This document shows positions 3,001 through 19,398 of a DNA stretch of 20,398 bases, piece after piece. This stretch comes from a virus. The position numbers and the translations under genes were made by a program. Under the pieces are notes generated by a model. It had not been told where the DNA came from. It saw only the letters and a program-made list of their open reading frames with translations, and did no database searches. The number at the start of each line of letters is the position of its first letter. The first letter of the stretch is position 1. The stretch lies in the IMG/VR virus record IMGVR_UViG_3300007539_000304, positions 1 to 20,398 of that record. The stretch is one strand, 5' to 3'.

Positions 3001-4826
3001 TGAGTGTACTGGGTATTCGGCATAATGATTCTTGCCGAATAAGTTGTACTAACACCAGAGTTAGCAACTGAGAGATACAGTTTATCGTTAGTCTTAGCAC
3101 CAATTCTGTAACCATCAACAACAGTTGCGGGAGGATTATTTTGATCCGTTGCATCTGCAATGTAGAGTTTATCAGTAGAACCGACAGATACTGTTACTGA
3201 AGTATCAAGTGGCAGATAGTTGATGTTGTTGACAGTAGTGTCAACTTCTTTAGGTGACAGGATATGTGAAATATATCCAGTGTCATCCTGAGAGAATGCA
3301 CTATTTCTGAATCCAGAACACTGGAATGCTTTTGAACCAAAGTTAGAGTTAGAGTTGTTGATGGAGAAGTCACCACCAGACTCTACACTAAAGTGCTGAG
3401 CATAACCAATAGCAAAAACAGAAACTAACTGCATGTAGGCATCATTGATGCCTCTGATGTGGAAGTTCTCATATTCTGGTTTGAACTTAGCGAGTGAATC
3501 GCTATGCAGGTTAGAGAATCCGGTCGAATCTTTGTATGTTCCGGTGGTCGAATCATACTTGACGAAAGCCTTATCATCTTTCTGAAGACCAATACCCGTG
3601 AACTGTGCCACGACCATTGACTTAAATCCTGATGCTTTGCTGCCATCAGCAAGCATACCGCACATACCAAATACTGATCTCAGAGAACAGTTGAAGATAT
3701 ATGGAGATGCTGACGTAACAGTATCAACAGCAAGATTGACACTTGAACCAGTTACTGAAGGAAGAAGTTCTACTGGTGTGTTTTGTACTTGATAAGTAAA
3801 CTGAGTGTCACTTACAACAGAGCTGACAACAAATTGTCCGTTGTATCCTTGTGCCTGAAGACCAGAAATTCTGATAGGTGAGTCAACACTCAGGTTGGGG
3901 AAACTGTCAGTCGTAGTAACAGTGATGGTTGTGTTGCCAGTTGCACCATCACCAGACTTAATGCTGCTGATACCAACAGATCCACCACGAGAACCAACAA
4001 TACGGAATTCATCGATTACTGGTTCGATATCCTCATCAGCAGGATAATCAGGATCAATAGGTCTACCTGAAGAAGGACCGAATGCAATACCGACCTTCTC
4101 ATAGTACATATCGAGATCTGTTCTTGCAGTCTCGAAAGTTTGGAAGTCGTCGTCAATCTTGGTGGTGTTTACACCATCTGCATATTCAAAACATGCAAGT
4201 TTGTGGTGTGAGAAATTAGGAACGAACTTATTAGTTGTGTAGTCTTTATATACAGTTCCATTTGGATCTCCATCAAACATGGAGAACTGCCAGAAGTAAC
4301 ATGCACCAGTTACCCTGAAGATCGCGGATCTCTCAATATTATCGTTCTCAGGGTTAGGCACATACAGAGGACGAACCTTTGTTTTACGAAGGTCCATACC
4401 AACGATGGAAGTACCACGAGGGACGATAATACCACCGTGGATACTATTAAGCTTATAGAGATTATTGTTAGGACTTGTTAGATCTACATCAGTTGTTAAA
4501 CTGAATTCTCCAAAGTCAGAAGTAGTACCACCACTTCTCATTCTATAGTTATTTGTTCCGTCAGGAATCAGACCTGGACGGTTGTCAACGACATGCAATC
4601 CTGGATAGATGAGGATTGTTGTCTTTGCAAATCTATCGTTATCTAATCCTCTCTGATATGAAAATCTAGCGGCTTCCATGAGAGCACGCTGGATTGTTCT
4701 AAAAGGACGTGATAGTGAATTTCCTTGGTTCTCAATACTATCCGTCGCATCCAAAGCATTTGGGTCAACGTAAATGATAGTCCCGCGAGTTGACTTCAGA
4801 AAATTATCTAATCTGGAGAGACCCAT
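1..4826 (-). CDS. Giant virion structural protein (baseplate/tail-fibre region), 3' end beyond window
   Basis: The frame opens at the ATG at 4826-4824 (MGLSRLDNFL...) and stays open to the window edge, giving at least 1608 residues with no stop reached. The first 100 residues (RGTIIYVDPNALD..., then FRTIQRALMEAARFSYQRG, then TILIYPGLHVVDNRPG) match the large structural protein I recall from T4-like cyanophages; the pattern resembles a pectate-lyase-like beta-helix start. Further in there are at least three copies of a beta-rich module ending in Y/FNG-x-F-x-V (around 3790-3900, 2110-2290 and 1025-1160). A pair of G-x-GY/YEVGD segments lies at about 1465-1660. The last residues in the window (GWIYTVNNAWEPFGF) are typical of the C-terminal part of this family. 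It has no obvious T4 gene equivalent; a role in the baseplate periphery or host contact is inferred from position and repeat content. A terminator and late-type promoter box lie just upstream. The ribosome binding site is weak (AATAAG). Confidence 0.9.
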   Translation of the reverse strand, partial: MGLSRLDNFLKSTRGTIIYVDPNALDATDSIENQGNSLSRPFRTIQRALMEAARFSYQRGLDNDRFAKTTILIYPGLHVVDNRPGLIPDGTNNYRMRSGGTTSDFGEFSLTTDVDLTSPNNNLYKLNSIHGGIIVPRGTSIVGMDLRKTKVRPLYVPNPENDNIERSAIFRVTGACYFWQFSMFDGDPNGTVYKDYTTNKFVPNFSHHKLACFEYADGVNTTKIDDDFQTFETARTDLDMYYEKVGIAFGPSSGRPIDPDYPADEDIEPVIDEFRIVGSRGGSVGISSIKSGDGATGNTTITVTTTDSFPNLSVDSPIRISGLQAQGYNGQFVVSSVVSDTQFTYQVQNTPVELLPSVTGSSVNLAVDTVTSASPYIFNCSLRSVFGMCGMLADGSKASGFKSMVVAQFTGIGLQKDDKAFVKYDSTTGTYKDSTGFSNLHSDSLAKFKPEYENFHIRGINDAYMQLVSVFAIGYAQHFSVESGGDFSINNSNSNFGSKAFQCSGFRNSAFSQDDTGYISHILSPKEVDTTVNNINYLPLDTSVTVSVGSTDKLYIADATDQNNPPATVVDGYRIGAKTNDKLYLSVANSGVSTTYSARIIMPNTQYTHEETTSEKVRYVERVNDVNNINSNVINLSAGHLLTNGEKIRIVSDNGELPDGLENNSVYFAITNEKSVGLTTSQIKIAQTLNDAVNDSPITINAKGGILKVISRVSDKKVGEIGHPVGFDTSQGQWYVNVATASSENSVFEVLNNIPPGKTARTYFTRTPDTRGPLETVYRYRYVIPKDSTTFARPPLDGYVLQESNNVIGAGNTEIQKYFAPGGATLTNSTELRNPRFVKSAEWAGNVAKINTELPHDLSVGAQVEVLNVSSANNAAGVASTAFNGTFTVTGISSTKQFSYTLSQDPGTFTGVTTTRNSNLPYFRKKKYNNTFSVFKAEELQKYVQNVQDGVYHLTVVNTSITPGIAPFNTLKLSQPLDNLYPQTNRDNPASDPVPATSYADQEIIGNVYSNEPQNSVTKEAAEKAQIDFASGIGLVDIKSTSGIAHTLYTSYDHGLCGITSVTVTNAGAGYTTGTYYGVRLGVSTTGANANARVTVDGTGAISDVTIMDGGSAYEVGDIISLVDVGTTAPSTPAVLRVQNIYDCVGECIEVGGVTRNESQAYDEYNTLYKITSVGIDNITVQSSDTIASFTTAGVGVTMTAKARATNTGRTAGISTFHYQANTGIATVTFSGAHGFRLDSKLKTSGFDSSLYNGEFLVTKVNSPTQVEIKPGITTTAPATGGNVTIYRPSLSSNGGDISESNEAISGRLVAQYAGISTTLGAAINSTDSDLTPIVVDNAELNGLRLGDYLQIDDEIFRIKETVSGDSLTIFRGLLGTRRQDHALGTQVKKVKPLPVELRRNSIIRASAHTFEYLGFGPGNYSTAFPERQNRILSEKEILNAQALRLEGGVTNYSGMDDRGNFYTANRKLSTVSGDEESYNTPIQTVTGEDAGPSDTKVGTNGINISDANVSEFINVEGGPANDIISTFDGPVVFNQKIASKSDEGIETKNLYIQGEADVARKRTIGVGSTPTEAGTPGDLVFKASPKLVNDYAGWIYTVNNAWEPFGF

Positions 4827-5198: not shown

Positions 5199-5789
5199 CT
5201 ACCTAACGTTTATATTTACCACAAATCGTGGTTCTTTTGTTGGGTAGGATGAACTGTGAAACAAATCTCCTTTGAAAGCAACTGCTCTACCTTTTTTAGG
5301 TGTGACCCGTTGTTTTTCGGTCCAAGTATCTTTAGATAAGAATGAAATGAATTCAGAAGAATTTTGAGTTCTCTCATTATAGATGATTGTATCACCATCA
5401 GTATCATTTAGATAGTAGATTATATTCCAACAGTTAGGAATAAAACTATCAACATGTGGCATTTGTACCTGATTAGAACCCATAGCAGGTACTGAATTTA
5501 TTCTCATTCTCAATAGTTGTTTTGCACCCAATGCCTCAAAGAACTGTAAGGCAAGTGGCATAAACCCATATGTGAGTTTTGAGCAGTATGATTCTTGATC
5601 ATTCTCAATCTCATACAAGTGGTGCAAGTTAACAAATCCATTACGAGGATCATTAACAAACTTAGGAATGTCTATGGTTGATTTATCCCGACGATACCAG
5701 GTAAGATCTGAATCATTTGCAAGAGTAAATAACCAGTTCTGATATGTTGATGGAATAATTTTATCAAAGACAATTACATCACGATTCAT
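5199..5789 (-). CDS. 2-oxoglutarate/Fe(II)-dependent oxygenase (prolyl-hydroxylase-like)
   Basis: This 196-residue protein has the facial triad of the 2OG-Fe(II) dioxygenase superfamily: H112-x-D114 (QMPHVDSF) and H178 (GDLFHSSSYP). R188 follows ten residues later (EPRFVVNINV) and would bind the 2-oxoglutarate carboxylate. These enzymes couple decarboxylation of 2-oxoglutarate to hydroxylation of a substrate, which cannot be predicted here. The C-terminal core (RAVAFKGDLFHSSSYPT) is the usual double-stranded beta-helix ending. The gene starts 5 nt after the upstream 87-residue gene, and its stop lies 8 nt before tRNA-Thr. It is therefore part of the sigma70-driven accessory operon rather than the structural operon. 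It is only distantly similar to the two other oxygenases in the window. Confidence 0.88.
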   Translation of the reverse strand: MNRDVIVFDKIIPSTYQNWLFTLANDSDLTWYRRDKSTIDIPKFVNDPRNGFVNLHHLYEIENDQESYCSKLTYGFMPLALQFFEALGAKQLLRMRINSVPAMGSNQVQMPHVDSFIPNCWNIIYYLNDTDGDTIIYNERTQNSSEFISFLSKDTWTEKQRVTPKKGRAVAFKGDLFHSSSYPTKEPRFVVNINVR

Positions 5790-6173: not shown

Positions 6174-6752
6174 CTAATCCCAATTACATCGAACAAATTT
6201 TGTGATCGCATATCTATCCTCTTCGAAAACCTTTGTGACAGAATGCTGTATCCATCCTGGGAAGATAACTGTTTTGTTGTTAGTTGTTTCGATCAAACAT
6301 TTTTGCTTAGGAAAGTATAAGTTTCCTCCAGCATCTTCTCCAAATGTGGTACTAATAATCACATGAATCTGACAATCTTCATGTGGTTTATATTCTTCAC
6401 CAGGATAGTATCTTCTGATCTTTGTAACGTCTTGATTAGAACGACAATATGTTTTCCAATACTCATTTGCTTCAAGTAAGTCTTTGAATAACTGTTCATT
6501 ATCAAAGAAAACTTTCTGAGTAATTCTTAGAATATCAGAAAAGCAACGCTCAGTATAAACGTTATCTAATTGCAGAGCTCCCGCTGTTGTCAGATACGTT
6601 CCATCTTCTTGTTTAGTAGAGTAATTCTCTGGTCCTTCTAGTTTATCACCAAGAAATTCAATCTCTCTCCAAATCAGTCTTAACTGATTCTCATCAAAGG
6701 TATTCTCTATGATGACATGTGGAAATGGATCATTGAAAATCTGGTAATTCAT
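6174..6752 (-). CDS. 2-oxoglutarate/Fe(II)-dependent oxygenase
   Basis: From the ATG at 6752 the protein has 192 residues (MNYQIFNDPFPHVIIENTF...). It shows H124-x-D126 (YKPHEDCQIH), H170 (PGWIQHSVTKV) and R180 (EEDRYAITKF), the Fe(II) triad and 2-oxoglutarate-binding Arg of the superfamily. A GGNLYFP segment between them is the usual strand before the distal His. The frame can also start at 6794, but that start lies inside the preceding 50-residue gene. The 6752 ATG begins one base after that gene's stop (TAATATG), which fits tight packing. The substrate is unknown. The stop is 4 nt before tRNA-Leu. Confidence 0.87.
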   Translation of the reverse strand: MNYQIFNDPFPHVIIENTFDENQLRLIWREIEFLGDKLEGPENYSTKQEDGTYLTTAGALQLDNVYTERCFSDILRITQKVFFDNEQLFKDLLEANEYWKTYCRSNQDVTKIRRYYPGEEYKPHEDCQIHVIISTTFGEDAGGNLYFPKQKCLIETTNNKTVIFPGWIQHSVTKVFEEDRYAITKFVRCNWD

Positions 6753-6753
6753 A

Positions 6754-6906
6754 TTACAAGGAATATGTGGGTGGATGGAATGCACAGTATTCATTGAAGG
6801 TGATTTTCATCTCCTTGTTAGTCAATCCACAATGTGACGCTGCTTTAGGAAGATTCCACTTTGCAGTGAACAGCATTTCCATTGCTTCTCTTGTTTCAGG
6901 TCTCAT
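6754..6906 (-). CDS. Small conserved HTH-like protein (50 aa)
   Basis: This short frame reads MRPETREAMEMLFTAKWNLPK, then AASHCGLTNKEMKITFNEY and CAFHPPTYSL. The segment AKWNLPKAASHCGLTNKEMK looks like the first two helices of a helix-turn-helix, as in small regulators. I recall near-identical 50-residue proteins from cyanophages, and related sequences in marine cyanobacteria. Its ATG overlaps the stop of the upstream gene by 4 nt (ATGA), which indicates translational coupling. The next oxygenase starts one base after its stop. A regulatory role is inference only. Confidence 0.8.
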   Translation of the reverse strand: MRPETREAMEMLFTAKWNLPKAASHCGLTNKEMKITFNEYCAFHPPTYSL

Positions 6907-7108: not shown

Positions 7109-7137
7109 ATTATAGGTCAGTCTGACGGGGGTGTCAA
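7109..7137 (-). promoter_or_regulatory. Perfect consensus sigma70 promoter (TTGACA-N17-TATAAT)
   Basis: On the minus strand TTGACA is at 7137-7132 and TATAAT at 7114-7109, separated by exactly 17 nt. It lies over the last codons and stop of the upstream oxygenase gene. The predicted start is about 17 nt before the ATG at 7085. It is the only evident entry point for the accessory operon running to the terminator at 4874-4897. A perfect host-type promoter inside a block of late structural genes implies early expression. Confidence 0.88.
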
Positions 7138-7731
7138 CCTCTTATACCAGAACGATAGGACAAATCTTTCACTGTCCTTCACTTCGCTGACATAATGAAG
7201 GAGTTGGGAGTTGGAGAACACGACTAGTTTACCTGTTTCTGGTCGGACATCATACTTCTCAAACAAAGTGTGACCACCCGTAAAGTCCTCATTCAAGTAA
7301 AGCATCGCAGCGAATACATCTGGGTTGTGGACGTTATTATCATCCACATGCGGATTCATATATGTCCCAACAGGCCAACGAACTACACCCACATAATCGA
7401 GTTCTATCTCACTGTCAAATGATTTGCATAACTTTGTGACTGCATGAACTACAGTCTTAAAAAGTTCATTATCATCAACTTCAATTGTAGTGGGATCGAC
7501 ATTTCCCCCGAGATAAATTGCCCCATAGTTACCATCGGGTTCTGGAACATCCATTCCTTTTGCCAATGATTCATCTGGATTAGAGGTATCAACAGTGGTC
7601 AAAAAAGTATCACCACCTCTATGCTCATCTCCATATGGCATCTCATCTTTATTTTTCTTCGCTAGTTTAACGAATGGTTCACAAAGAAAAGGATCGAGAA
7701 ACTTTTCTTCAACATAAATCAGTTTTTTCAT
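7117..7731 (-). CDS. 2-oxoglutarate/Fe(II)-dependent oxygenase (prolyl-4-hydroxylase-like) in the structural operon
   Basis: This 204-residue protein carries H128-x-D130 (MNPHVDDNN), H179 (SQLLHYVSEV) and R189 (SERFVLSFWYK). A GGHTLF strand and LYLNEDF match the prolyl-4-hydroxylase-type 2OG-Fe(II) fold. It probably hydroxylates a protein or small molecule; the target is unknown. Its ATG overlaps the stop of the tail-fibre-like gene by 4 nt, so it is translationally coupled to late structural genes, unlike the two other oxygenases, which lie in the sigma70-driven operon. That placement makes a virion protein a plausible substrate, but this is inference. Confidence 0.9.
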   Translation of the reverse strand: MKKLIYVEEKFLDPFLCEPFVKLAKKNKDEMPYGDEHRGGDTFLTTVDTSNPDESLAKGMDVPEPDGNYGAIYLGGNVDPTTIEVDDNELFKTVVHAVTKLCKSFDSEIELDYVGVVRWPVGTYMNPHVDDNNVHNPDVFAAMLYLNEDFTGGHTLFEKYDVRPETGKLVVFSNSQLLHYVSEVKDSERFVLSFWYKRLTPPSD

Positions 7732-11828: not shown

Positions 11829-13115
11829 TTAGAATGGTTTACGTCCGATTGATTCTCGCACTAAGTTCAGTTTAGTAAATGATTTATTAGTAGTAATCAA
11901 ATGGCACATATCTACTATCATATATAGACCACTTTTCTTCTGGCTCACTAGAGATGTTGATTTTTCTGAAACCTCAGGAAAATCACAATGTACGATATCT
12001 CCTGCTCTCAAACTAAAATCTCCAGCAATTGTGATGGAAAGTTTTGTTGTGAAGAGTTGATTATACCTCATGAATGACTGACGAATGATGCTATCAATGT
12101 CATAGTCATCTTCTCTAGCATTCTTGAGTTGATCTTCCAGATCTTTTCCTGGAGGAAGAACTCCCTTCTTATCATACTTAACTACCAATCGACTAGATTT
12201 TGACTGAAGGTCAACATCAGATGCAATTTTAGGAAACTCTTTGCCTCCCATTGTTTCTTCATTCTGTTGATCTTTGCTGTCTGCTTCGTTATCTCTTGGT
12301 TTGTTATCGTATAGATTTGTCGCTCTCAGAGTGGTCTTGAAAATAGATCCTGTAACCAGGGATTGTTCTACGTCTACATTACTACTAAACGAACTTGCTA
12401 AAATCTTAGCATCGTATTCGTCGGGAAGCAACGTACTATTAGTATACACAAACTTTTTCTTCACGTCTTCTTCAAATAACTTATCGATGGATCTGAACTG
12501 ATATCCATCAGATGTTTCATAGAAAAAATATCCAGCACTTTTCACCCCTTGTGGCACAGATCTCTTTGCCAACCAATGACACTTATAGAATGGTTTTGCT
12601 ACTCTACCCAAGAAACTCAGAGTATTTTGCGTATCATCAACTGTTACTTCCTTGGGACTTTTTAATACATCACTAACAATCTTTTTTACAGAATCCGACA
12701 ATAAACCATCATATCTCTTACTAACACGGTTTTCTACGAGTTCATTATCTTGACACTCTTTGGACCACAGATCTAATGTATATTGAACTTTGTTTGCCTC
12801 TTCAGTAACATTGCGAATACTTTTTACACGAAACTGATTATCATCTTCAAACTTTAAAGTGTTCTCATAATTATCTGAGATATTAAGATGAACCTTTTCG
12901 CCACCAGTCAAATTGGCACCATCAGAATCCATTGATGACGCAGGATTATCTCCACCACCAGTTTCAACAACCATCATTGATGCTCTGACAGTATTATCTA
13001 AGATACTTTCAAAGTATTGTAGTTGCACCGTTCCATGAGAGAGATCAATAGGATCTCCATAGTTCGAATAAACTTCAAACTTACCAATATTTCCTGTCTC
13101 AGCTGTCTTTGTCAT
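11829..13115 (-). CDS. 27: Baseplate hub protein, gp27-like
   Basis: The protein has 428 residues, near the size of T4 gp27 (391). It begins MTKTAETGNIGKFEVYSNYG, then HGTVQLQYFESILDNTVRAS and VHLNISDNYENTLKFEDD, the first hub tube-like beta-domain. A CHWLAKRSVP segment and SAGYFFYETSDGYQFRSIDKLF are features common to hub proteins of contractile tails. The late segment (LSITIAGDFSLRAGDIVHCD) is a typical return strand pair. In T4, a gp27 trimer adapts the threefold gp5 spike to the sixfold tube; here CP12 is the only gene between the two. The start overlaps the upstream gene by 4 nt (ATGA). Assignment rests on fold-like pattern and position, not close identity. Confidence 0.78.
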   Translation of the reverse strand: MTKTAETGNIGKFEVYSNYGDPIDLSHGTVQLQYFESILDNTVRASMMVVETGGGDNPASSMDSDGANLTGGEKVHLNISDNYENTLKFEDDNQFRVKSIRNVTEEANKVQYTLDLWSKECQDNELVENRVSKRYDGLLSDSVKKIVSDVLKSPKEVTVDDTQNTLSFLGRVAKPFYKCHWLAKRSVPQGVKSAGYFFYETSDGYQFRSIDKLFEEDVKKKFVYTNSTLLPDEYDAKILASSFSSNVDVEQSLVTGSIFKTTLRATNLYDNKPRDNEADSKDQQNEETMGGKEFPKIASDVDLQSKSSRLVVKYDKKGVLPPGKDLEDQLKNAREDDYDIDSIIRQSFMRYNQLFTTKLSITIAGDFSLRAGDIVHCDFPEVSEKSTSLVSQKKSGLYMIVDMCHLITTNKSFTKLNLVRESIGRKPF

Positions 13116-15382
13116 CCGATTTTACTTCTCAGTGGAGGTGTGGAGTATGCCAGATCTATTGACTGTGGGAAGTTGATATTGTCTTCACCAGATGCAGGTT
13201 CCCTAATATATCTATCTAACAAAAAGATAGTTGATTTTCCATCAGCATATGATGGATATTGTGCAAGATCTGGTATCTGTGCAGACGCTTTCAAAGGTTT
13301 TGTTTGAAGAGGAGTCTGATAAGGTGCTGTGGGAATAGTTAACCCAGGTGGTGGTGTGACTGGTGCGGTCGCCTGTGGCGGTAGTTTCAGATAATCCTCT
13401 GGTTTAACTGTATCAAACTCACTTCTACCAGTTCCAAATGGAGCATCTATAGCATACTTGGAAAGAGGGTCTACATGACCCAAAAGTTTGTATCCATCCC
13501 AAGCCTTACCAGTCTCCCAGTGTAGATGAGGTCCACTAGTTCTACCTGTCATACCAACAATACCAATAACATCACCTTTTCTGACAGATGTGATGCGAGC
13601 AGTATCTCTCAAGTGAGCATATAGGTGAACGTTACCTTTATCATCCTTAAAGACTAAGAAATTACCCCATCCATCTTTATCAAATCCAGAATCAATAACC
13701 TCACCATCTGTCAGTGCTCTTACTTCAGATCCTAAAGGTGCTGCAATATCAACACCTTTATGAGTTCTGAACAGTCCACGTTTTTCTCCAAAAACACCAG
13801 TGACTCTTAAACCTTCAATAGGTGTTGGTGGTTTGTATACAAATGATTGTCCTCCAAGACCAGAGATAATTCTCCGAATCCTTTGCATATGAGGATTATC
13901 GGGATTGAAGTCTCCAATTTTGTCTTTTTGATATAAGTAGTCTCCCATCTTATATCCATTATAAAAGATTTCTGCTGCTTCTTCAGAATCTTTAGATGTT
14001 AATAACTGTTGTCTAACTTTCAAAGGGGTAGTATCAATGAGCATCTCCATCTGAGCATCAAGACTCATAGGATCTTTACCTTTACGAATAATAAATTCTT
14101 GAATCTTTTCCCATGTTTCTTCAGGCCAACCAGCGATACCATATCTCCTTCTAGCTGGATCTTCAAATCCTGGATCAAGATCACTAAGTCTGATCAAATT
14201 TGCAACCACACCAAGTCCACCAGATTTTCCATATGATGCTTTCAAAATTTGCATTTGTGAAACAACTCTGGTCTGGGTTCCTTGCGTAGGTTGAATTGAA
14301 GGAGAATACGATTGAGTTCTTGCTACACCCTTTGCAATTTCAGCATTGATTTCACTGAAAATAGCATCAACTCTAGACTGAGTTTTGAATTTTAGTGATT
14401 GTGCATATGCTTTCATCACCGTCTCAATATCCATTCCTTCATTAGAACGGACAAGGGAGATAATTTGATTTGCAAAGTTATCATATAACCTTGCTGACGG
14501 TTTTTGACCCATCGCGATATCAACACCGGCACCCATAATGGGTCCAAGACCACCAATTTTTTTCAGTGCTTTAGCACTATTCATCAAAGATCTTAGAGGA
14601 TTTCTTTTCTTAAGATCCTCAGGATTTGAAAAAAGTTTTTCAATAGTTGGTTTTCCACCAACATCAAGACCGGGTTCAGATTTGCGTGGTTGAGTAATAA
14701 TAACTGGTTTATCTCTATTGACACGAATGCGTCTTGTTACTTTACCTTTATATCTCTTGTCACCAACAAGTCCACCACTACTTTTTGTAGGGACTGGTTC
14801 CTCTTTATAAGCATCAGCACTGAAGACACCAAGAGTCAATGCGGAGTTGGTGAAATCTTTCACACCCTCCATGAACTTATCATAACCCTTTCTAAATTCG
14901 GGTCCAAGACTACTTTCAAGTCCCTGAGAAATCTGATCATTTAGATCATATGCACCTTTAATAAAGGACGCAGTAAAATCAATAGTCGAAATCAGAACAT
15001 CTGATGCAACATTGATACCATCTTTAAGGACGGGAAGAAGTTTGTCCATCTCCTTCAAACTTTCGCTATGCTTTCCAAACATGTATCCAAGGAAAGTATA
15101 TCCGATGAAAGTTTTTACAGTATCAAACAGACCTGTAGATGGTAGTAGATTTTTCTTATCTACCTTCTTAGCTTCCTTTTTCTTTTCTAATTTGTCTTCT
15201 CTTAATTTTCTGTCTTTATTCTCCTCATCCTTTCTCTTTACAACGATTTCTTTCTTCTTCTCTTTGATTCTATCTGCAAATACTTTTTTTGCATCAACAA
15301 CTTTCTTGGATGCGACTACAAGCGCACCACCCTTTCCAGTTTGACCTGCTGCTGGAAGTAACTTTGCTGCTGAAATTGCCAT
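13112..15382 (-). CDS. Tail protein with M23 endopeptidase domain and degenerate tail-lysozyme-like region
   Basis: This 756-residue protein has three parts. Residues 1-80 are highly charged and Lys-rich (probable coiled coil). A hydrophobic stretch follows (FDTVKTFIGYTFLGYMFG, 86-103). Residues 375-480 (GLGVVANLIRLSDLDPGF, RRYGIAGWPEETWEKIQEFI, EEAAEIFYNGYK) resemble the phage tail-lysozyme fold, but the position expected for the catalytic Glu is L399. Residues 525-640 form an M23/LytM peptidase with H541-x3-D545 (HKGVD), H590 (LYAHL) and H619-x-H621 (PHLHWE), so the zinc site is intact. A Pro-rich linker follows. It would cut peptidoglycan cross-links during DNA entry, replacing the lysozyme absent from gp5. 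It overlaps the tape-measure gene by one base and the gp27-like gene by four. Confidence 0.87.
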   Translation of the reverse strand: MAISAAKLLPAAGQTGKGGALVVASKKVVDAKKVFADRIKEKKKEIVVKRKDEENKDRKLREDKLEKKKEAKKVDKKNLLPSTGLFDTVKTFIGYTFLGYMFGKHSESLKEMDKLLPVLKDGINVASDVLISTIDFTASFIKGAYDLNDQISQGLESSLGPEFRKGYDKFMEGVKDFTNSALTLGVFSADAYKEEPVPTKSSGGLVGDKRYKGKVTRRIRVNRDKPVIITQPRKSEPGLDVGGKPTIEKLFSNPEDLKKRNPLRSLMNSAKALKKIGGLGPIMGAGVDIAMGQKPSARLYDNFANQIISLVRSNEGMDIETVMKAYAQSLKFKTQSRVDAIFSEINAEIAKGVARTQSYSPSIQPTQGTQTRVVSQMQILKASYGKSGGLGVVANLIRLSDLDPGFEDPARRRYGIAGWPEETWEKIQEFIIRKGKDPMSLDAQMEMLIDTTPLKVRQQLLTSKDSEEAAEIFYNGYKMGDYLYQKDKIGDFNPDNPHMQRIRRIISGLGGQSFVYKPPTPIEGLRVTGVFGEKRGLFRTHKGVDIAAPLGSEVRALTDGEVIDSGFDKDGWGNFLVFKDDKGNVHLYAHLRDTARITSVRKGDVIGIVGMTGRTSGPHLHWETGKAWDGYKLLGHVDPLSKYAIDAPFGTGRSEFDTVKPEDYLKLPPQATAPVTPPPGLTIPTAPYQTPLQTKPLKASAQIPDLAQYPSYADGKSTIFLLDRYIREPASGEDNINFPQSIDLAYSTPPLRSKIG

Positions 15383-17262
15383 TAGTTAACCAGTCCGTAA
15401 ATTTGAGAAGTCTCACTTCTTCTATTGCCAGGAGCAACAGCAGAAAAACTAGGAACAGATGTTGATGGAGATTGAGTTGGTTGAACAGATCCTGCTGATG
15501 CATCAACAGAAGGTAATCTGATAATTTCAGTTCTAGATCCTCGCTCCAATGGAGTTGGCATTGGACCTTTATACATTGGATCATTATAATATGCATTAGG
15601 TCCAGTGACCTGATCATATACTGCTGTTGGTTGTGGGCTGATCAGATCATTGATGATCATTTCCGCTAACATTAGAAGCGGATTTCCAAAACTAGCCTGA
15701 CCAAAACTCTTTGCTGTACGAATAGGTCTCTTGATTAATTCTCTTGTAACTGGTGTTGGTGCAGACCCTGGTCCACCTAAGCTCGCAGGAACATACCTTG
15801 GTCTAGGTACACCCATTGGATTCCTAGGAGAAGGTTTTGAATGCCAATCAAGAAGATCTCTTCCAAATACTGCTCTATCTGGTCTTCCAAATACAGAAGG
15901 TTTCTTACCTGCTTTGAAGTTTTTATTACTCTGACCTCTTTGGATAGCATCATCACCAAAGAGTGTTGTAGGATCTGGATTCTTCTGGAAATACGAGAAT
16001 GGATTACCAAACTTTGCTTTCGATTCTACAGGAATACGAGTGTTTGCACCTTTGTTGAACCAATTCATAAATCCACCAACCATGCCACCACCTTGGGCAA
16101 ATTGGATTCCACCATCGAACTTATCCATGTTGGCATTTGCGCCACCAAATTTCTTGTTCGCTGCCAACAGATTATTTGCACCGATCGCAGATACTGCAGC
16201 CTTATTCATAACAACTTCACCAGGCATCAGCGCGGTGAGTTGCGTATCTGGTCCAGCACCTCTAATTCTTCTACCAGTGTCAGGACTGACCATTCCACCA
16301 CCAGACTTTGCTGGAGTGTTCAACGACGGCAAGATCATTCTGGTAAGAGTTTCCAGAATAGACCCAGGTTTAGATAGTTCTTTTGCTTGTTCTGTTGGTG
16401 CTGCTTCTTCTAAACCTTTTTCTTTAAGTTGCTGTTCTGTAGCAGTCTTACTCCTACCCACCAACATCGCTGATGCTATACCAATACCCGCTGCGGCAGC
16501 AATGATGGGGTTAGAAAGAAGTGCTCCACCAAGAGAGAACAACGTGCTTGCCAACGCCTTAATCAATCCACCTATAGGCGTTAGTAGTATTAATGCAGCA
16601 CCAGAAAGAGCAGGCCAGAAGTCTGACAAGAACTTTTTAATTGCATCAACCTTTCCAGCATTTTCTGGGTCTCCAAACCACTTGAATGCTTTATTGATTC
16701 CAGATGCAAGAAATGTATAGAATAAGAAATTAAAAATCTTATCCAAGATACCCTTTGTTGGAGTAAAGAGTTGTCTTGTTTTTTGAATGAGTTTCTTTGT
16801 ATTTGTCTCTAGTTTATTTTCTCTCTTCTCTCTCCTATCATCTTCCTTTTTCTTTCTATCCCTTTCGTCATCTTTCTTTTCTAACTTATTCTGATCTTCA
16901 ATACCTTTAGTGATACCATCAACTGCTTCAACAATAGTTGCTAAAGAACTTTGCATAGGCACAATCGCACCACCTTTGCCAGGAAGCAATGCAATAGGTT
17001 TCTTCAGATTAGTTACATTCTCAACTTTTACTTTCTTCTTCTTAATCTTAAATCTAACTTCTTCCTTATTTCTAACTCTCTTATATTCGTCCCTTAGTAA
17101 CTCATCCTCTTCTGCAGCAAGTTCTGATCCAGACATTCTGGCAGCAACCATCTTCTCCAGAAGAAGTTGCTTGTATGTCTCATAATCGAGATCGAAAACT
17201 TCTTCCAGACCAAGAACTCTTAGGATTCTTTCGTCAATAGATTCTTGGACTGTCTTAACCAT
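15382..17262 (-). CDS. Tape-measure-like tail protein (gp29 role)
   Basis: This 626-residue protein has a charged N-terminal half with Lys/Glu/Asp-rich coiled-coil sequence (125-165, DDERDRKKKEDDRREKREN). Hydrophobic segments occupy 174-190, 216-245 and 250-268. The segment GPDTQLTALMPGEVVMNKAA (337-356), then NNLLAANKKFGG, is a recurrent tape-measure signature. T4 gp29 has 590 residues, so length is comparable. A tape-measure role fits its place directly after the gp26-like chaperone and -1 frame, as tape-measure genes usually follow such chaperones. The start overlaps the -1 frame's end by 8 nt. The C-terminal third is Pro/Gly/Ser-rich. It may act together with the neighbouring M23 protein. 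The T4 numbering is inferred from position. Confidence 0.72.
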   Translation of the reverse strand: MVKTVQESIDERILRVLGLEEVFDLDYETYKQLLLEKMVAARMSGSELAAEEDELLRDEYKRVRNKEEVRFKIKKKKVKVENVTNLKKPIALLPGKGGAIVPMQSSLATIVEAVDGITKGIEDQNKLEKKDDERDRKKKEDDRREKRENKLETNTKKLIQKTRQLFTPTKGILDKIFNFLFYTFLASGINKAFKWFGDPENAGKVDAIKKFLSDFWPALSGAALILLTPIGGLIKALASTLFSLGGALLSNPIIAAAAGIGIASAMLVGRSKTATEQQLKEKGLEEAAPTEQAKELSKPGSILETLTRMILPSLNTPAKSGGGMVSPDTGRRIRGAGPDTQLTALMPGEVVMNKAAVSAIGANNLLAANKKFGGANANMDKFDGGIQFAQGGGMVGGFMNWFNKGANTRIPVESKAKFGNPFSYFQKNPDPTTLFGDDAIQRGQSNKNFKAGKKPSVFGRPDRAVFGRDLLDWHSKPSPRNPMGVPRPRYVPASLGGPGSAPTPVTRELIKRPIRTAKSFGQASFGNPLLMLAEMIINDLISPQPTAVYDQVTGPNAYYNDPMYKGPMPTPLERGSRTEIIRLPSVDASAGSVQPTQSPSTSVPSFSAVAPGNRRSETSQIYGLVN

Positions 17263-17419
17263 TTTGTTGTTGCTTTAACTGTTCTTCTTCAAGATGTTGT
17301 TGTAATAAAGCGACGTAGATGTCTCGTTCCCAAGGCATCAAGTTTTCAATCTCAGTTAGTGAGTATTTATGGTACTGAATCAAGGAAAAATTGAGTCGAT
17401 AGTACGACTCCAGATTCAT
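17255..17419 (-). CDS. Short frame in -1 phase, likely C-terminal extension of the gp26-like protein (54 codons)
   Basis: The frame reads MNLESYYRLNFSLIQYHKYS, then LTEIENLMPWERDIYVALLQ and QHLEEEQLKQQQNG. It can be translated alone from the ATG at 17419. However, there is no Shine-Dalgarno sequence, and the same frame is open upstream through the end of the gp26-like gene, in -1 phase. A slippery sequence sits at the junction (17437-17446), so it is probably also made as a fusion. The MPWERDIYVALL-helix pattern is conserved in cyanophage annotations I recall. It ends inside the first codons of the tape-measure-like gene (8-nt overlap). A tail-assembly role is inferred from context. Confidence 0.75.
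   Translation of the reverse strand: MNLESYYRLNFSLIQYHKYSLTEIENLMPWERDIYVALLQQHLEEEQLKQQQNG
17364..17371 (-). promoter_or_regulatory. Late promoter box CATAAATA inside the -1 frame
   Basis: The minus-strand octamer CATAAATA matches the NATAAATA late motif and lies about 100 nt upstream of the tape-measure start. It falls within codons for Q-Y-H-K-Y-S, so coding constraint may explain it. It is a candidate internal late promoter for the tape-measure to oxygenase operon. Confidence 0.4.
17393..17410 (-). other. 6-bp stem-loop downstream of the slippery site
   Basis: On the minus strand GAGTCG-TACTAT-CGACTC forms a perfect 6-bp stem with a 6-nt loop, beginning 26 nt after the slippery sequence. 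That is farther than the usual 5-9 nt spacer for a frameshift stimulator, so its role is uncertain. It lies early in the -1 frame. Confidence 0.35.
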
Positions 17420-17430
17420 GTGGATGAGTC

Positions 17431-18147
17431 CTATCCGAAAAAATTTGAGAGACCCTCCAGAGTAACCTTACTCTTCACTTTTGTCTTGGGGTTAGTGATG
17501 TTGACTGTATGTGTCAGCTTAGGCATCGTCTCGAAGAAACTTTCGATTTCTTTGAATTGTGACGAATTCATTTGATCCAAGAACTCTTTAATTTCTTTCT
17601 TTGTAAAATCTGCTGATGTCCAGACTTCCTCTTCACTGAATACTTTGTCAATACACGAAGCAACTAGATCAAAAGACTGGTCAACGTTAGTTTCTCCAAC
17701 TTCAAAATTAGATTTGATAAACTCATCAAGAGATGGATACTTCATCTCCATCATCAATTCATCATTGATTTTGATTTGGTTGTTATGATCATCTCTCTTG
17801 ACAACTTTAATGTCATCAATCAAGATAGTCACAGGAACCGTAGTTTCTTCATCATCTGGGCAAATAAGTTGCAACTCAACTTCTTCTCCAACAGACTTAC
17901 CACGAATATTCAAGAAAAGATATTCGATGTCAAATGTAGGAAGAGATTCTACTTTGACTCCCTTTGTCTGAATACAACTCTTGATAACTTGCTTGATTGC
18001 TGTTGTGATCTGTTTCGGATCCTCAGACTCAAGAGCAAGAATCAAAAGTTTTTCTTCACGAACAAGAAACGGTCTGTACTTAATTGTTTGACCAGTTGAA
18101 GGCAATTCTAACTCGTGAACAGGAGTAGAAATTTTTGGTAAAGGCAT
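17431..18147 (-). CDS. 26: Baseplate hub/tail assembly protein, gp26-like
   Basis: The 238-residue protein begins MPLPKISTPVHELELPSTGQ, then YRPFLVREEKLLILALESED and TTAIKQVIKSCI. This matches the T4-like baseplate protein family (T4 gp26/gp51 type), whose N-terminus has a PFLVKEEK-like motif. The middle is acidic beta sequence (EEVELQLICPDDEETTVPVTI); the end is helical (FLDQMNSSQFKEIESFFE, then KSKVTLEGLSNFFG). T4 gp26 has 208 residues. The gene lies directly before the -1 frame and tape-measure gene, where tail-assembly chaperones sit in many tailed phages. Its last codons carry a slippery heptamer. A GATAAATA late box is centred about 30 nt before the ATG. No Shine-Dalgarno sequence is seen. 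Confidence 0.82.
   Translation of the reverse strand: MPLPKISTPVHELELPSTGQTIKYRPFLVREEKLLILALESEDPKQITTAIKQVIKSCIQTKGVKVESLPTFDIEYLFLNIRGKSVGEEVELQLICPDDEETTVPVTILIDDIKVVKRDDHNNQIKINDELMMEMKYPSLDEFIKSNFEVGETNVDQSFDLVASCIDKVFSEEEVWTSADFTKKEIKEFLDQMNSSQFKEIESFFETMPKLTHTVNITNPKTKVKSKVTLEGLSNFFG
17437..17446 (-). promoter_or_regulatory. Programmed -1 frameshift slippery sequence (AAATTTTTTC)
   Basis: At the end of the gp26-like gene the zero-frame codons are TCA AAT TTT TTC GGA TAG. This contains two overlapping in-phase heptamers of the X-XXY-YYZ form, A-AAT-TTT and T-TTT-TTC. A one-base backward slip at either gives ...FF-R-I-G-L-I-H-M-N-L-E..., bypasses the TAG two codons later, and continues 61 codons to the stop at 17255. 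The predicted fusion is 297 residues. Confidence 0.7.
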
Positions 18148-18175: not shown

Positions 18176-18183
18176 TATTTATC
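18176..18183 (-). promoter_or_regulatory. Late promoter box GATAAATA
   Basis: The minus-strand octamer GATAAATA matches the late motif NATAAATA. It overlaps the stop codon of the gp54-like gene and lies 28 nt before the ATG of the gp26-like gene. Position and match both fit a late promoter for the chaperone, tape-measure and hub operon. Confidence 0.7.
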
Positions 18184-18913
18184 CGGGTAACGCACCATCT
18201 GTATTAGCGTTGGTGATGTAATATCTACTATAACTGAAGGACACTGTAACCTTCAGAAGTTGTGATGACTCGTAACTTACTGGAATAGAGTTAATCGAGA
18301 TTGGATATGCATTAATAAAGTTATATTTTATATGCGAAGTTGCATTTAAGTCAAGTTTTAATTCGCCAGTATGAAGTCCATCCTGATCTTTCTCAAACTT
18401 ATAGATGCACAGCTTTTGAGTCACATAATCTTCTGGGAATTTTGCCCTGAATGAAGAATTGGTATTTTCACTAAGTCCAGCAGCACTATCATCTGTGGGA
18501 CTTCCACCCCTTCCTTCTCTATCTGCACCTGTCCCTTCTCCAGCGATATAGTTAATCCACTGATTAAAGAGAAGTAGAATCTTATAATCTCTGTCAACGT
18601 AGAAAGTGAAGTCAGCTCTATCATCATAAGATCTTCTGTATGCGTGTCTCTCAGTAACTCCTGAGAAATCATCATTCAACTCATGAGTCAACAAAGACGC
18701 ACCAGGAAGACTCGCTTCAGCACAATTGACGCTAATCAATTCTGAAGGGAGTGGATTTGCAGAAAGACCGTCATTCATAAGCATACCCTTACCAATCCAC
18801 TGGCGAATATCGCTTGTGCCTGGTAAAGGAAACTCACAATAATAATGTGATGTTAACGCTGGACGTAATAGTTGGTGCTTGATATCACTCAGCGATTTCT
18901 TAAATTTTGCCAT
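18179..18913 (-). CDS. 54: Baseplate tail-tube initiator, gp54-like
   Basis: From the ATG at 18913 the protein has 244 residues (MAKFKKSLSDIKHQLLRPAL). A longer frame to 18997 would cross the divergent promoter and is rejected. HYYCEFPLP, the turn SVNCAEASLPGASLLTHEL, the segment ERHAYRRSYDDRADFTFYVD and the ending VSYESSQLLKVTVSFSYSRY are the tail-tube-like fold shared by gp19, gp48 and gp54. In T4, gp54 sits on gp48 and nucleates tube polymerisation. T4 gp54 is longer (320 residues). The distinction from gp48 rests on a separate gp48-like gene starting at 19792. Confidence 0.78.
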   Translation of the reverse strand: MAKFKKSLSDIKHQLLRPALTSHYYCEFPLPGTSDIRQWIGKGMLMNDGLSANPLPSELISVNCAEASLPGASLLTHELNDDFSGVTERHAYRRSYDDRADFTFYVDRDYKILLLFNQWINYIAGEGTGADREGRGGSPTDDSAAGLSENTNSSFRAKFPEDYVTQKLCIYKFEKDQDGLHTGELKLDLNATSHIKYNFINAYPISINSIPVSYESSQLLKVTVSFSYSRYYITNANTDGALPG

Positions 18914-18917
18914 TAGG

Positions 18918-18925
18918 CATAAATA
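18918..18925 (+). promoter_or_regulatory. Late promoter box CATAAATA for the rightward genes
   Basis: The plus-strand octamer CATAAATA matches the late motif and lies 29 nt before the gp4-like ATG, in the 41-nt divergent gap between gp54-like and gp4-like genes. It would drive gp4, gp53 and gp48 to the right. A matching perfect box for leftward gp54 is not seen; the nearest leftward sequence (ATATAAGC, 18938-18931) is only a partial match. Confidence 0.72.
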
Positions 18926-18954
18926 GAGATGCTTATATATTATGTATATGCGTA

Positions 18955-19398
18955 ATGGGAGAAAGTATAAAGAGTAGGTATCAACCTTCGTATCCAAACA
19001 AATATCAAGGTGATCCTAACAATATTATCTGTAGAAGCAGTTGGGAAAGAATCTTTTGCAGATGGTGTGATCTAAACGAAAACATTTTAGCATGGGGTTC
19101 TGAAGAAATCAGAATCAGATATTATGATCCCGTGAAAAAGAGAGTGAGAACTTACTATCCAGACTTTATCATTAAAGTTCAGGAGAGTAATGGAAAGATC
19201 AAAAAGTATTTGATCGAAGTGAAACCCAAAAAGCAGACTGCACCACCCAAAAAACCAAAGAGGCAAACTCAATCATACATTAACGAAGTATACACTTATG
19301 CCACGAATGAGGCAAAGTGGAAAGCTGCTAGAGAATGGTGTTTAGATCATCGACTTGAGTTCAAGATTATCACAGAAGACGAACTCGGAATCAAGTAA
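18955..19398 (+). CDS. 4: Head completion protein, gp4-like (nuclease-fold)
   Basis: The ATG at 18955 gives 147 residues, matching T4 gp4 (150), which is needed to finish DNA-filled heads before tail joining. The N-terminus is SRYQPSYPNKYQGDPNNIIC plus RSSWE, followed by Y-Y-P-D70-F-I-I and Y-L-I-E88-V-K90. Together with E31 these residues form the pattern of a PD-(D/E)xK (TnsA-type) nuclease fold, so DNA-end trimming or binding is plausible. A Lys/Pro-rich stretch (91-104) follows. An earlier in-frame ATG at 18907 lies upstream of the late promoter and is rejected. Its stop overlaps the gp53 start by one base (TAATG). Confidence 0.88.
   Translation: MGESIKSRYQPSYPNKYQGDPNNIICRSSWERIFCRWCDLNENILAWGSEEIRIRYYDPVKKRVRTYYPDFIIKVQESNGKIKKYLIEVKPKKQTAPPKKPKRQTQSYINEVYTYATNEAKWKAAREWCLDHRLEFKIITEDELGIK

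Follow-up and report, generated by a model that had tools for sequence, protein, structure and literature searches.

Slippage of ribosomes by one base, giving a short and a long form of one tail assembly protein, is common in tailed phages. In phage lambda, gene G comes after the tail tube gene, and in T4-like phages tail assembly chaperone genes have reportedly been identified by Vladimirov, Gautam and Davidson (Virology 566:9-15, 2022). The lambda tail assembly chaperones gpG and gpGT are connected by a -1 frameshift at a ratio of 30:1, and according to a 2016 review, long-tailed phages 'except T4' conserve this G-T frameshift (PMC5009743). For T4, gp26 and gp51 are reported as hub assembly chaperones, of which gp51 is required, yet absent from the final particle (PMC3004832). 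A 2010 comparison of T4-like genomes found cyanophage gp51 shortened to about 20% of its usual length and no gp51 in Aeh1 (PMC3037559). According to the PRFect preprint, which cites Vladimirov et al., some T4-like phages possess a short gene plus a fused long gene (PMC10274946), and a paper on phage Adele states that poly-T is known to signal -1 frameshifting in the TAC-N genes of T4-like phages (PMC12846349). Here, we analysed 20,398 nucleotides (nt) of DNA from a marine T4-like virus (IMG/VR record IMGVR_UViG_3300007539_000304, positions 1 to 20,398; the whole stretch is hereafter called the window), which harbor a gp26-like gene on the minus strand, followed by a small frame known as 'gp51' in relatives. 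Based on comparison with its relatives, this gene very probably yields two forms of a tail assembly chaperone, the long one via a -1 frameshift as proposed in an initial annotation of the sequence, and 'gp51' of cyanophages is most likely the tail of gp26, encoded through this frameshift.

The junction in the window displays the following features:

17431 to 18147, minus strand: gp26-like short form with a T4_baseplate domain, 238 amino acids (PF12322, phrog_150, AlphaFold2 model)
17437 to 17443, minus strand: slippery heptamer T-TTT-TTC, in phase (sequence and conservation)
17431 to 17433, minus strand: 0-frame stop TAG, one codon past the heptamer
17255 to 17443, minus strand: -1 frame extension, 60 codons past Phe-Phe, or 62 counting Phe-Phe (open frame, hhalign)
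17255 to 17419, minus strand: 54-codon ATG frame, 'gp51' or 'baseplate hub assembly catalyst' in relatives (phrog_634, E 1e-25)
17453 to 17458, minus strand: GGAGGG, a Shine-Dalgarno (SD)-like element located 9-10 nt upstream of the heptamer (synonymous-codon control)
17393 to 17410, minus strand: possible 3' stem-loop GAGTCG-TACTAT-CGACTC, 26 nt past the heptamer (predicted fold of the identical segment of locus L001)

The gp26-like protein matched PF12322 (T4_baseplate) in a profile search with an E-value of 8.5e-75 (251.6 bits, gathering cut-off 24.5) and phrog_150 with 2.2e-78, and all 44 members of set A5 matched PF12322 at E 0.001 or better. On the minus strand, its gene ends with the codons TCA (17448-17446), AAT (17445-17443), TTT (17442-17440), TTC (17439-17437), GGA (17436-17434) and TAG (17433-17431). 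Thus, an X XXY YYZ heptamer is present in phase close to the 3' end, and the -1 frame is open into a conserved extension; this frame continues from the heptamer through TAA (17257-17255), giving a fusion product of 297 amino acids. The extension had initially been given as 54 codons, which fits the part after the ATG at 17419, while the full extension comprises 60. Among the 19 mechanically predicted open reading frames (ORFs) of at least 100 amino acids in the window, only the gp26-like one carried a listed heptamer within its last six codons. A heptamer was present in 9 of 629 other mechanical ORFs from loci L001-L214 (not all of which are genes), and none of the 629 combined it with a -1 extension of 40 codons or more.

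For the comparison, 214 loci plus the window were used, and all 215 sequences revealed a gp26-family match. Eleven T4-type loci (L081, L114-L123) were kept out of the heptamer counts, leaving 204 sequences (203 loci and the window) with 205 ORF rows, since L126 gives two. In L126, gp26 is split by an in-frame stop around 1987-1989, which may be a sequencing error; both parts are family matches, and the 3' row with its heptamer is counted below while the 5' row is not. An in-phase T TTT TT[C/T/A] was found in 202 of the 204 sequences (C in 167, T in 33, A in 2), the exceptions being L087, a Vibrio phage without heptamer, and L133, which is cut by the contig end. Merging of identical junctions reduced the 202 sequences to 169 unique junctions, which fell into 95 clusters at 80% ungapped nucleotide identity; L058 and L181 represent one contig, and some loci duplicate named phages. 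The stop follows the heptamer after one codon in 145 of the 169 unique junctions. Though the residue preceding Phe-Phe is variable (Ser, Asp, Asn, Ala, Thr, Gly), its codon ended with T in 202/202, and other Phe-Phe pairs in the same ORFs were slippery in only 3 of 97 cases. Ten further named records were read, one of T4 type (L223) and nine others, of which six harbored the heptamer (Atu_ph07, XG4, phi-Grn1, S-H38, S-CAM1 and ACG-2014c) and three Vibrio phages (K452, YC, D492) did not. The initial annotation had pointed to two overlapping heptamers, and a second one, A-AAT-TTT, is indeed present in the window (17446-17440); as a conserved element it was dropped, as it occurred in 9/169 unique junctions, and only T-TTT-TTC is conserved.

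The openness of the -1 frame, also proposed initially, extends to all homologues with a complete extension (161/161 unique junctions), with 43-71 residues counted from Phe-Phe. The check named in the initial annotation as able to refute the frameshift, on slippery sequence, openness and an independent start in homologues, thus turned out in its favor. The shortest extension belongs to L072, where a deletion (3208-3282) removes its first part and leaves the -1 frame open; this deletion could be an assembly artefact. From the gp26 stop to the ATG of the small ORF, the -1 frame is under purifying selection. Over the four codons from the stop to the ATG column, the ratio of nonsynonymous to synonymous polymorphism (pN/pS) was 0.45 in the -1 frame (12 nt) versus 1.5 and 2.3 in the two other frames (9 nt), calculated from 122 sequences with L072 and L201 left out. 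In L042, L056 and L080, a -1 stop lies directly 5' of the heptamer, so that the -1 frame begins there.

Upstream of the heptamer, pairing with the anti-SD sequence was strongest in 8-nt windows beginning 15-17 nt 5' of it. The peak energy amounted to -6.78 kcal/mol, versus -4.28 kcal/mol in synonymous controls preserving the amino acids (z -13.8, 95 clusters); controls at offsets -22, -9, -8 and -7, away from the peak, hold failed duplex energies. Codon choice followed the same pattern, as Glu-Gly was encoded by GAAGGT in 1 of 76 cases near the site versus 27 of 59 elsewhere, and Glu of Glu-Gly by GAG in 53/76 versus 11/59. The spacing of GGAGGG in the window is within the 9-14 nt given for -1 frameshifting in the 2016 review (PMC5009743), and the element is a probable frameshift stimulator. 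Downstream of the heptamer, folding compared to shuffled sequences resulted in mean z values of -1.1 to -1.3 in four stretches, versus -0.15 and 0.06 in two control regions, so that this region is on average more structured than the shuffles.

In T4, gp26 (208 amino acids) and gp51 (249 amino acids) are encoded by separate genes in divergent orientation. Comparison with hhalign, whose E-values come from single comparisons and are rough, aligned the frameshift-type fusion (90 sequences) with gp51 (10 sequences), spanning the junction and nearly the whole length (E 6.7e-21), the extension by itself with the gp51 C-terminus (1.5e-7), the core with gp26 (1.4e-28), and gp26 with gp51 (5.3e-17), while the extension had no hhalign match to gp26. 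Both T4 proteins match PF12322, the family of the window protein, and on sequence grounds they are paralogues. The small frame, initially presented without identity, equals the known C-terminal region of 'gp51', and it also matched the C-terminal end of phrog_150 besides phrog_634. This kinship is visible by profile comparison only, since BLASTP of the 54-residue frame against T4 gp51 resulted in no match. T4 gp26 corresponds to the short form and gp51, with the same domain plus the extension, to the long form, with two divergent paralogous genes lacking a slippery site in T4 and one gene plus a frameshift here. A second full-length gp51 paralogue was looked for in the window, which is a fragment, and only one match to family P0001 was found. 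A third paralogue, gp28, had been suspected from its N-terminus and was dropped, as one gp28 sequence matched none of the others (hhalign probabilities 0.2-0.5). The gp51 that Aeh1 (L084, L107) was said to lack is there, as an extension of gp26 in the -1 frame that has neither annotation nor start codon. The short gp51 of cyanophages and its absence from Aeh1 are both explained if 'gp51' represents such an extension.

An AlphaFold2 model of the window gp26 (predicted local distance difference test, pLDDT, 89.5) may also point to a chaperone. For residues 1-96, the three best solved structures were 3fgx (Z 8.1), 2ob9 (Z 7.8) and 3klu (Z 7.3), with 84-86 aligned residues and root-mean-square deviations of 4.0-4.2, followed by rows with Z of at most 5.0. 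2ob9 is the HK97 tail assembly chaperone and 3klu is YqbN, and 3fgx and 3klu are tail assembly chaperones of the same kind as 2ob9. With these middling values, the resemblance of the modelled N-terminal domain to solved tail assembly chaperones supports the assignment and is no proof of it. The gp51 model (pLDDT 80.6) displayed an order of elements similar to that of gp26 and extra low-confidence C-terminal helices. Sequence searches of the PDB that started from the gp26 profile or from T4 gp51 revealed nothing at E up to 1.

Several observations weigh against a frameshift-encoded chaperone. Four Vibrio phages (L087, L215, L216, L217; two typed as Ackermannviridae, two untyped) lack the heptamer and keep the -1 extension frame with an overlapping TAATG; in these, the SD-like element is missing as well (-2.1 to -2.4 kcal/mol). 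In the non-shifting T4-type genes, SD-like pairing is partly retained (-1.6 to -6.2 kcal/mol; the median of the 95 clusters is -5.9), so that the SD signal alone cannot separate the types. No downstream helix is common to all sequences compared (L072 and L201 excluded), as helices differ by clade. The fold match is middling, with Z near 8 and a Foldseek E of 0.9 for 2ob9, and the fold search with the gp51 model gave no chaperone match, its best rows being C1QBP-like (Z 5.3). Finally, an in-frame ATG able to start a separate small protein exists in 47 of 90 clusters, and the ATG of the window has a moderate SD (-3.9 kcal/mol in the identical L001), about the mean of gp26 starts. A conserved downstream hairpin was considered and dropped, since there were several alternative helices and none in common.

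The last of these points would suit phages that use both routes, a frameshift fusion and, where they keep an internal ATG, a free small protein. This we regard as unlikely. The respective column (HM) is M in 77/161 unique junctions, so that the ATG is common near the clade of the window; counted by cluster, it is D, E or N in 54/90 and M in 21/90, and Met looks clade-specific. In addition, the moderate SD of the window is not typical, as anti-SD energy at this ATG averaged -1.0 kcal/mol in 21 clusters versus -3.9 at gp26 starts, and reached -6 or lower in one of the 21.

Far less probable is that the small protein is an independent gene, starting at ATG 17419 and translated by coupling after the gp26 stop, with the poly-T being incidental. 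It is so annotated in many cyanophages, and some phages have an overlapping TAATG or TGATG. Apart from the 47 clusters whose ATG lies at the conserved YY column or upstream of it, though, 18 of 90 had only GTG or TTG there and 25 had none of the three, one of these being the deletion locus L072 (8/169 unique junctions, or 5/95 clusters, with a cut extension were left out of these counts). An independent start is thus often absent, including in Aeh1 (L084), HTVC008M (L082) and Melnitz (L090), where the annotated gp51 begins inside the domain in the latter two and none is annotated in Aeh1. The weak mean anti-SD pairing at the ATG, the selection on the -1 codons upstream of it, the near-invariant heptamer and T4 gp51 as one colinear fusion also argue against a separate gene. 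Furthermore, the distance from the selected upstream SD to the ATG exceeds 30 nt, which is too long for initiation. The 54-codon ATG frame is therefore most likely not an independent gene.

Slippage of RNA polymerase on the T run, instead of ribosomal frameshifting, could also give the -1 frame, as transcriptional slippage happens on runs of six or more T such as those found here (up to eight in L099). We consider this highly improbable, since T TTT TTC in 167/202 sequences means a run of usually six T and no longer, the codon phase X XXY YYZ is kept, T TTT TTA also occurs (2), and the accompanying SD-like element acts on ribosomes. The idea that Phe-Phe is kept for protein reasons and its codons by chance draws on T4-type gp26, which often has Phe-Phe without slippage (EFFELL), and has next to no chance, being refuted as it stands by the codon counts: gp26 ended non-slippery in 11/11 T4-type genes read to the stop (including L223, with the cut L116 left out), with TTC TTT, TTC ATT, TTA TTT or TTT ATT, versus TTT as first codon and a preceding T in 202 ORFs behind varying residues, which gives a log10 P of about -36 under the assumption of independent clusters, an indicative value as they are identity groups and not independent events.

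At the sequence level, then, four features strongly support the frameshift arrangement as real: the heptamer, a -1 frame that is open and under selection, an SD-like element that is selected as well, and colinearity of the fusion with T4 gp51. From this we infer a mechanism, including the occurrence and efficiency of slippage, the chaperone action and its partners. Most ribosomes would halt at TAG and release the short form (gp26, 238 amino acids), while a minority would slip back one base at T-TTT-TTC, probably aided by pairing of the upstream GGAGGG with 16S ribosomal RNA and by downstream RNA structure. The slipped ribosomes would read 60 more codons, resulting in the long form of 297 amino acids with the C-terminal domain of gp51. 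By analogy with lambda gpG and gpGT, the tape-measure protein would be coated by the short form in many copies and the long form in few, and the role of the extension would be to recruit parts of the tail tube or hub.

As in lambda, a short form would be accompanied by a long form extended in the -1 frame, the site is near the 3' end and the gene comes after the tail tube gene; unlike lambda, the tail is of the contractile T4-like type, the heptamer is of U type and a selected SD-like element is present, and no sequence similarity is claimed. In E. coli dnaX, the frameshift occurs at an A-type heptamer and yields the shorter product, whereas here it would give the longer one. The dnaX cassette shares an SD-like stimulator 5' of its heptamer, within 9-14 nt, according to the review (PMC5009743). 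For Adele and the Vandenendeviridae, a -1 frameshift has been proposed at a poly-T site for TAC-N and TAC-NC, with the downstream ORF recast as the C-terminal part, as here, though in another phage family and, in Adele, with the invariant motif GTTTTT (PMC12846349).

The genes on both sides of the junction were as follows:

18179 to 18997, minus strand: tail tube protein, preceding gene, a mechanical ORF (PF23849, E 1.7e-14; phrog_45, E 2.6e-32)
15382 to 17262, minus strand: next gene, candidate tape-measure-like protein of 626 amino acids (phrog_35029, no function, E 1.4e-39)

The latter gene overlaps the -1 extension and small frame by 8 nt. The initial annotation had called it a tape-measure gene, which is plausible; its identity is not established, as similarities to the phrog_58 tape measure (E 3e-4) and, by BLASTP, to part of the protein annotated as tape measure in HTVC008M (E 0.07) are weak. 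A protein of 756 amino acids (13112-15382, minus strand) contains an M23 peptidase domain (E 7.8e-22) and, slightly below the cut-off, a stretch resembling Phage_lysozyme2; it matches phrog_35997, as does its 626-residue neighbor, and is possibly a second tape-measure-like protein. Further on in the tail region, three closely spaced genes on the minus strand (5199-5789, 6174-6794, 7117-7731) encode 2OG-Fe(II) oxygenase family proteins (PF13640). On the plus strand, an ORF for a protein with a TnsA-like endonuclease N-terminal domain (18907-19398; PF08722, E 2.9e-22) overlaps the start of the mechanical tail tube frame on the opposite strand.

With the small-frame protein as query, matches with E up to 1 were obtained in 544 phage records. 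In the 60 for which the annotation is listed, 32 had a named gp51 or hub gene, 11 a 'hypothetical protein' and 16 no feature, and one record was unannotated. Since many matches are without a named feature, many protein databases probably lack the long chaperone form. The initial annotation knew of no prior description for T4-type cyanophage hubs; according to the citing papers, however, the chaperone role of T4-like genes is already in print, and the genes of Vladimirov et al. very probably belong to the same gene family as here. Thus, the kind of system, and probably this family too, has been published, while the comparative detail is partly new: the literature searched, which covered few subscription journals, contained no description of the SD-like element, the missing starts or the Vibrio exception.

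The SD-like element provides a directly testable stimulator, and the arrangement bears on the statement in the 2016 review that the G-T frameshift is conserved 'except T4' (PMC5009743). With the evidence about evenly balanced, the ancestral chaperone gene of the T4 superfamily may reach its short and long forms differently by lineage: via a frameshift with a selected SD-like element in most of those sampled, among them cyanophages, Aeh1, phi-Grn1, phiN3 and Atu_ph07, via two paralogous genes in the T4 type, and via stop-start coupling in Vibrio phages of the Ackermannviridae kind, whose degenerate T_TTY without SD and overlapping TAATG suggest a change from recoding to coupling. If this is true, T4 as the exception among tail frameshifts would represent a secondary loss by duplication.

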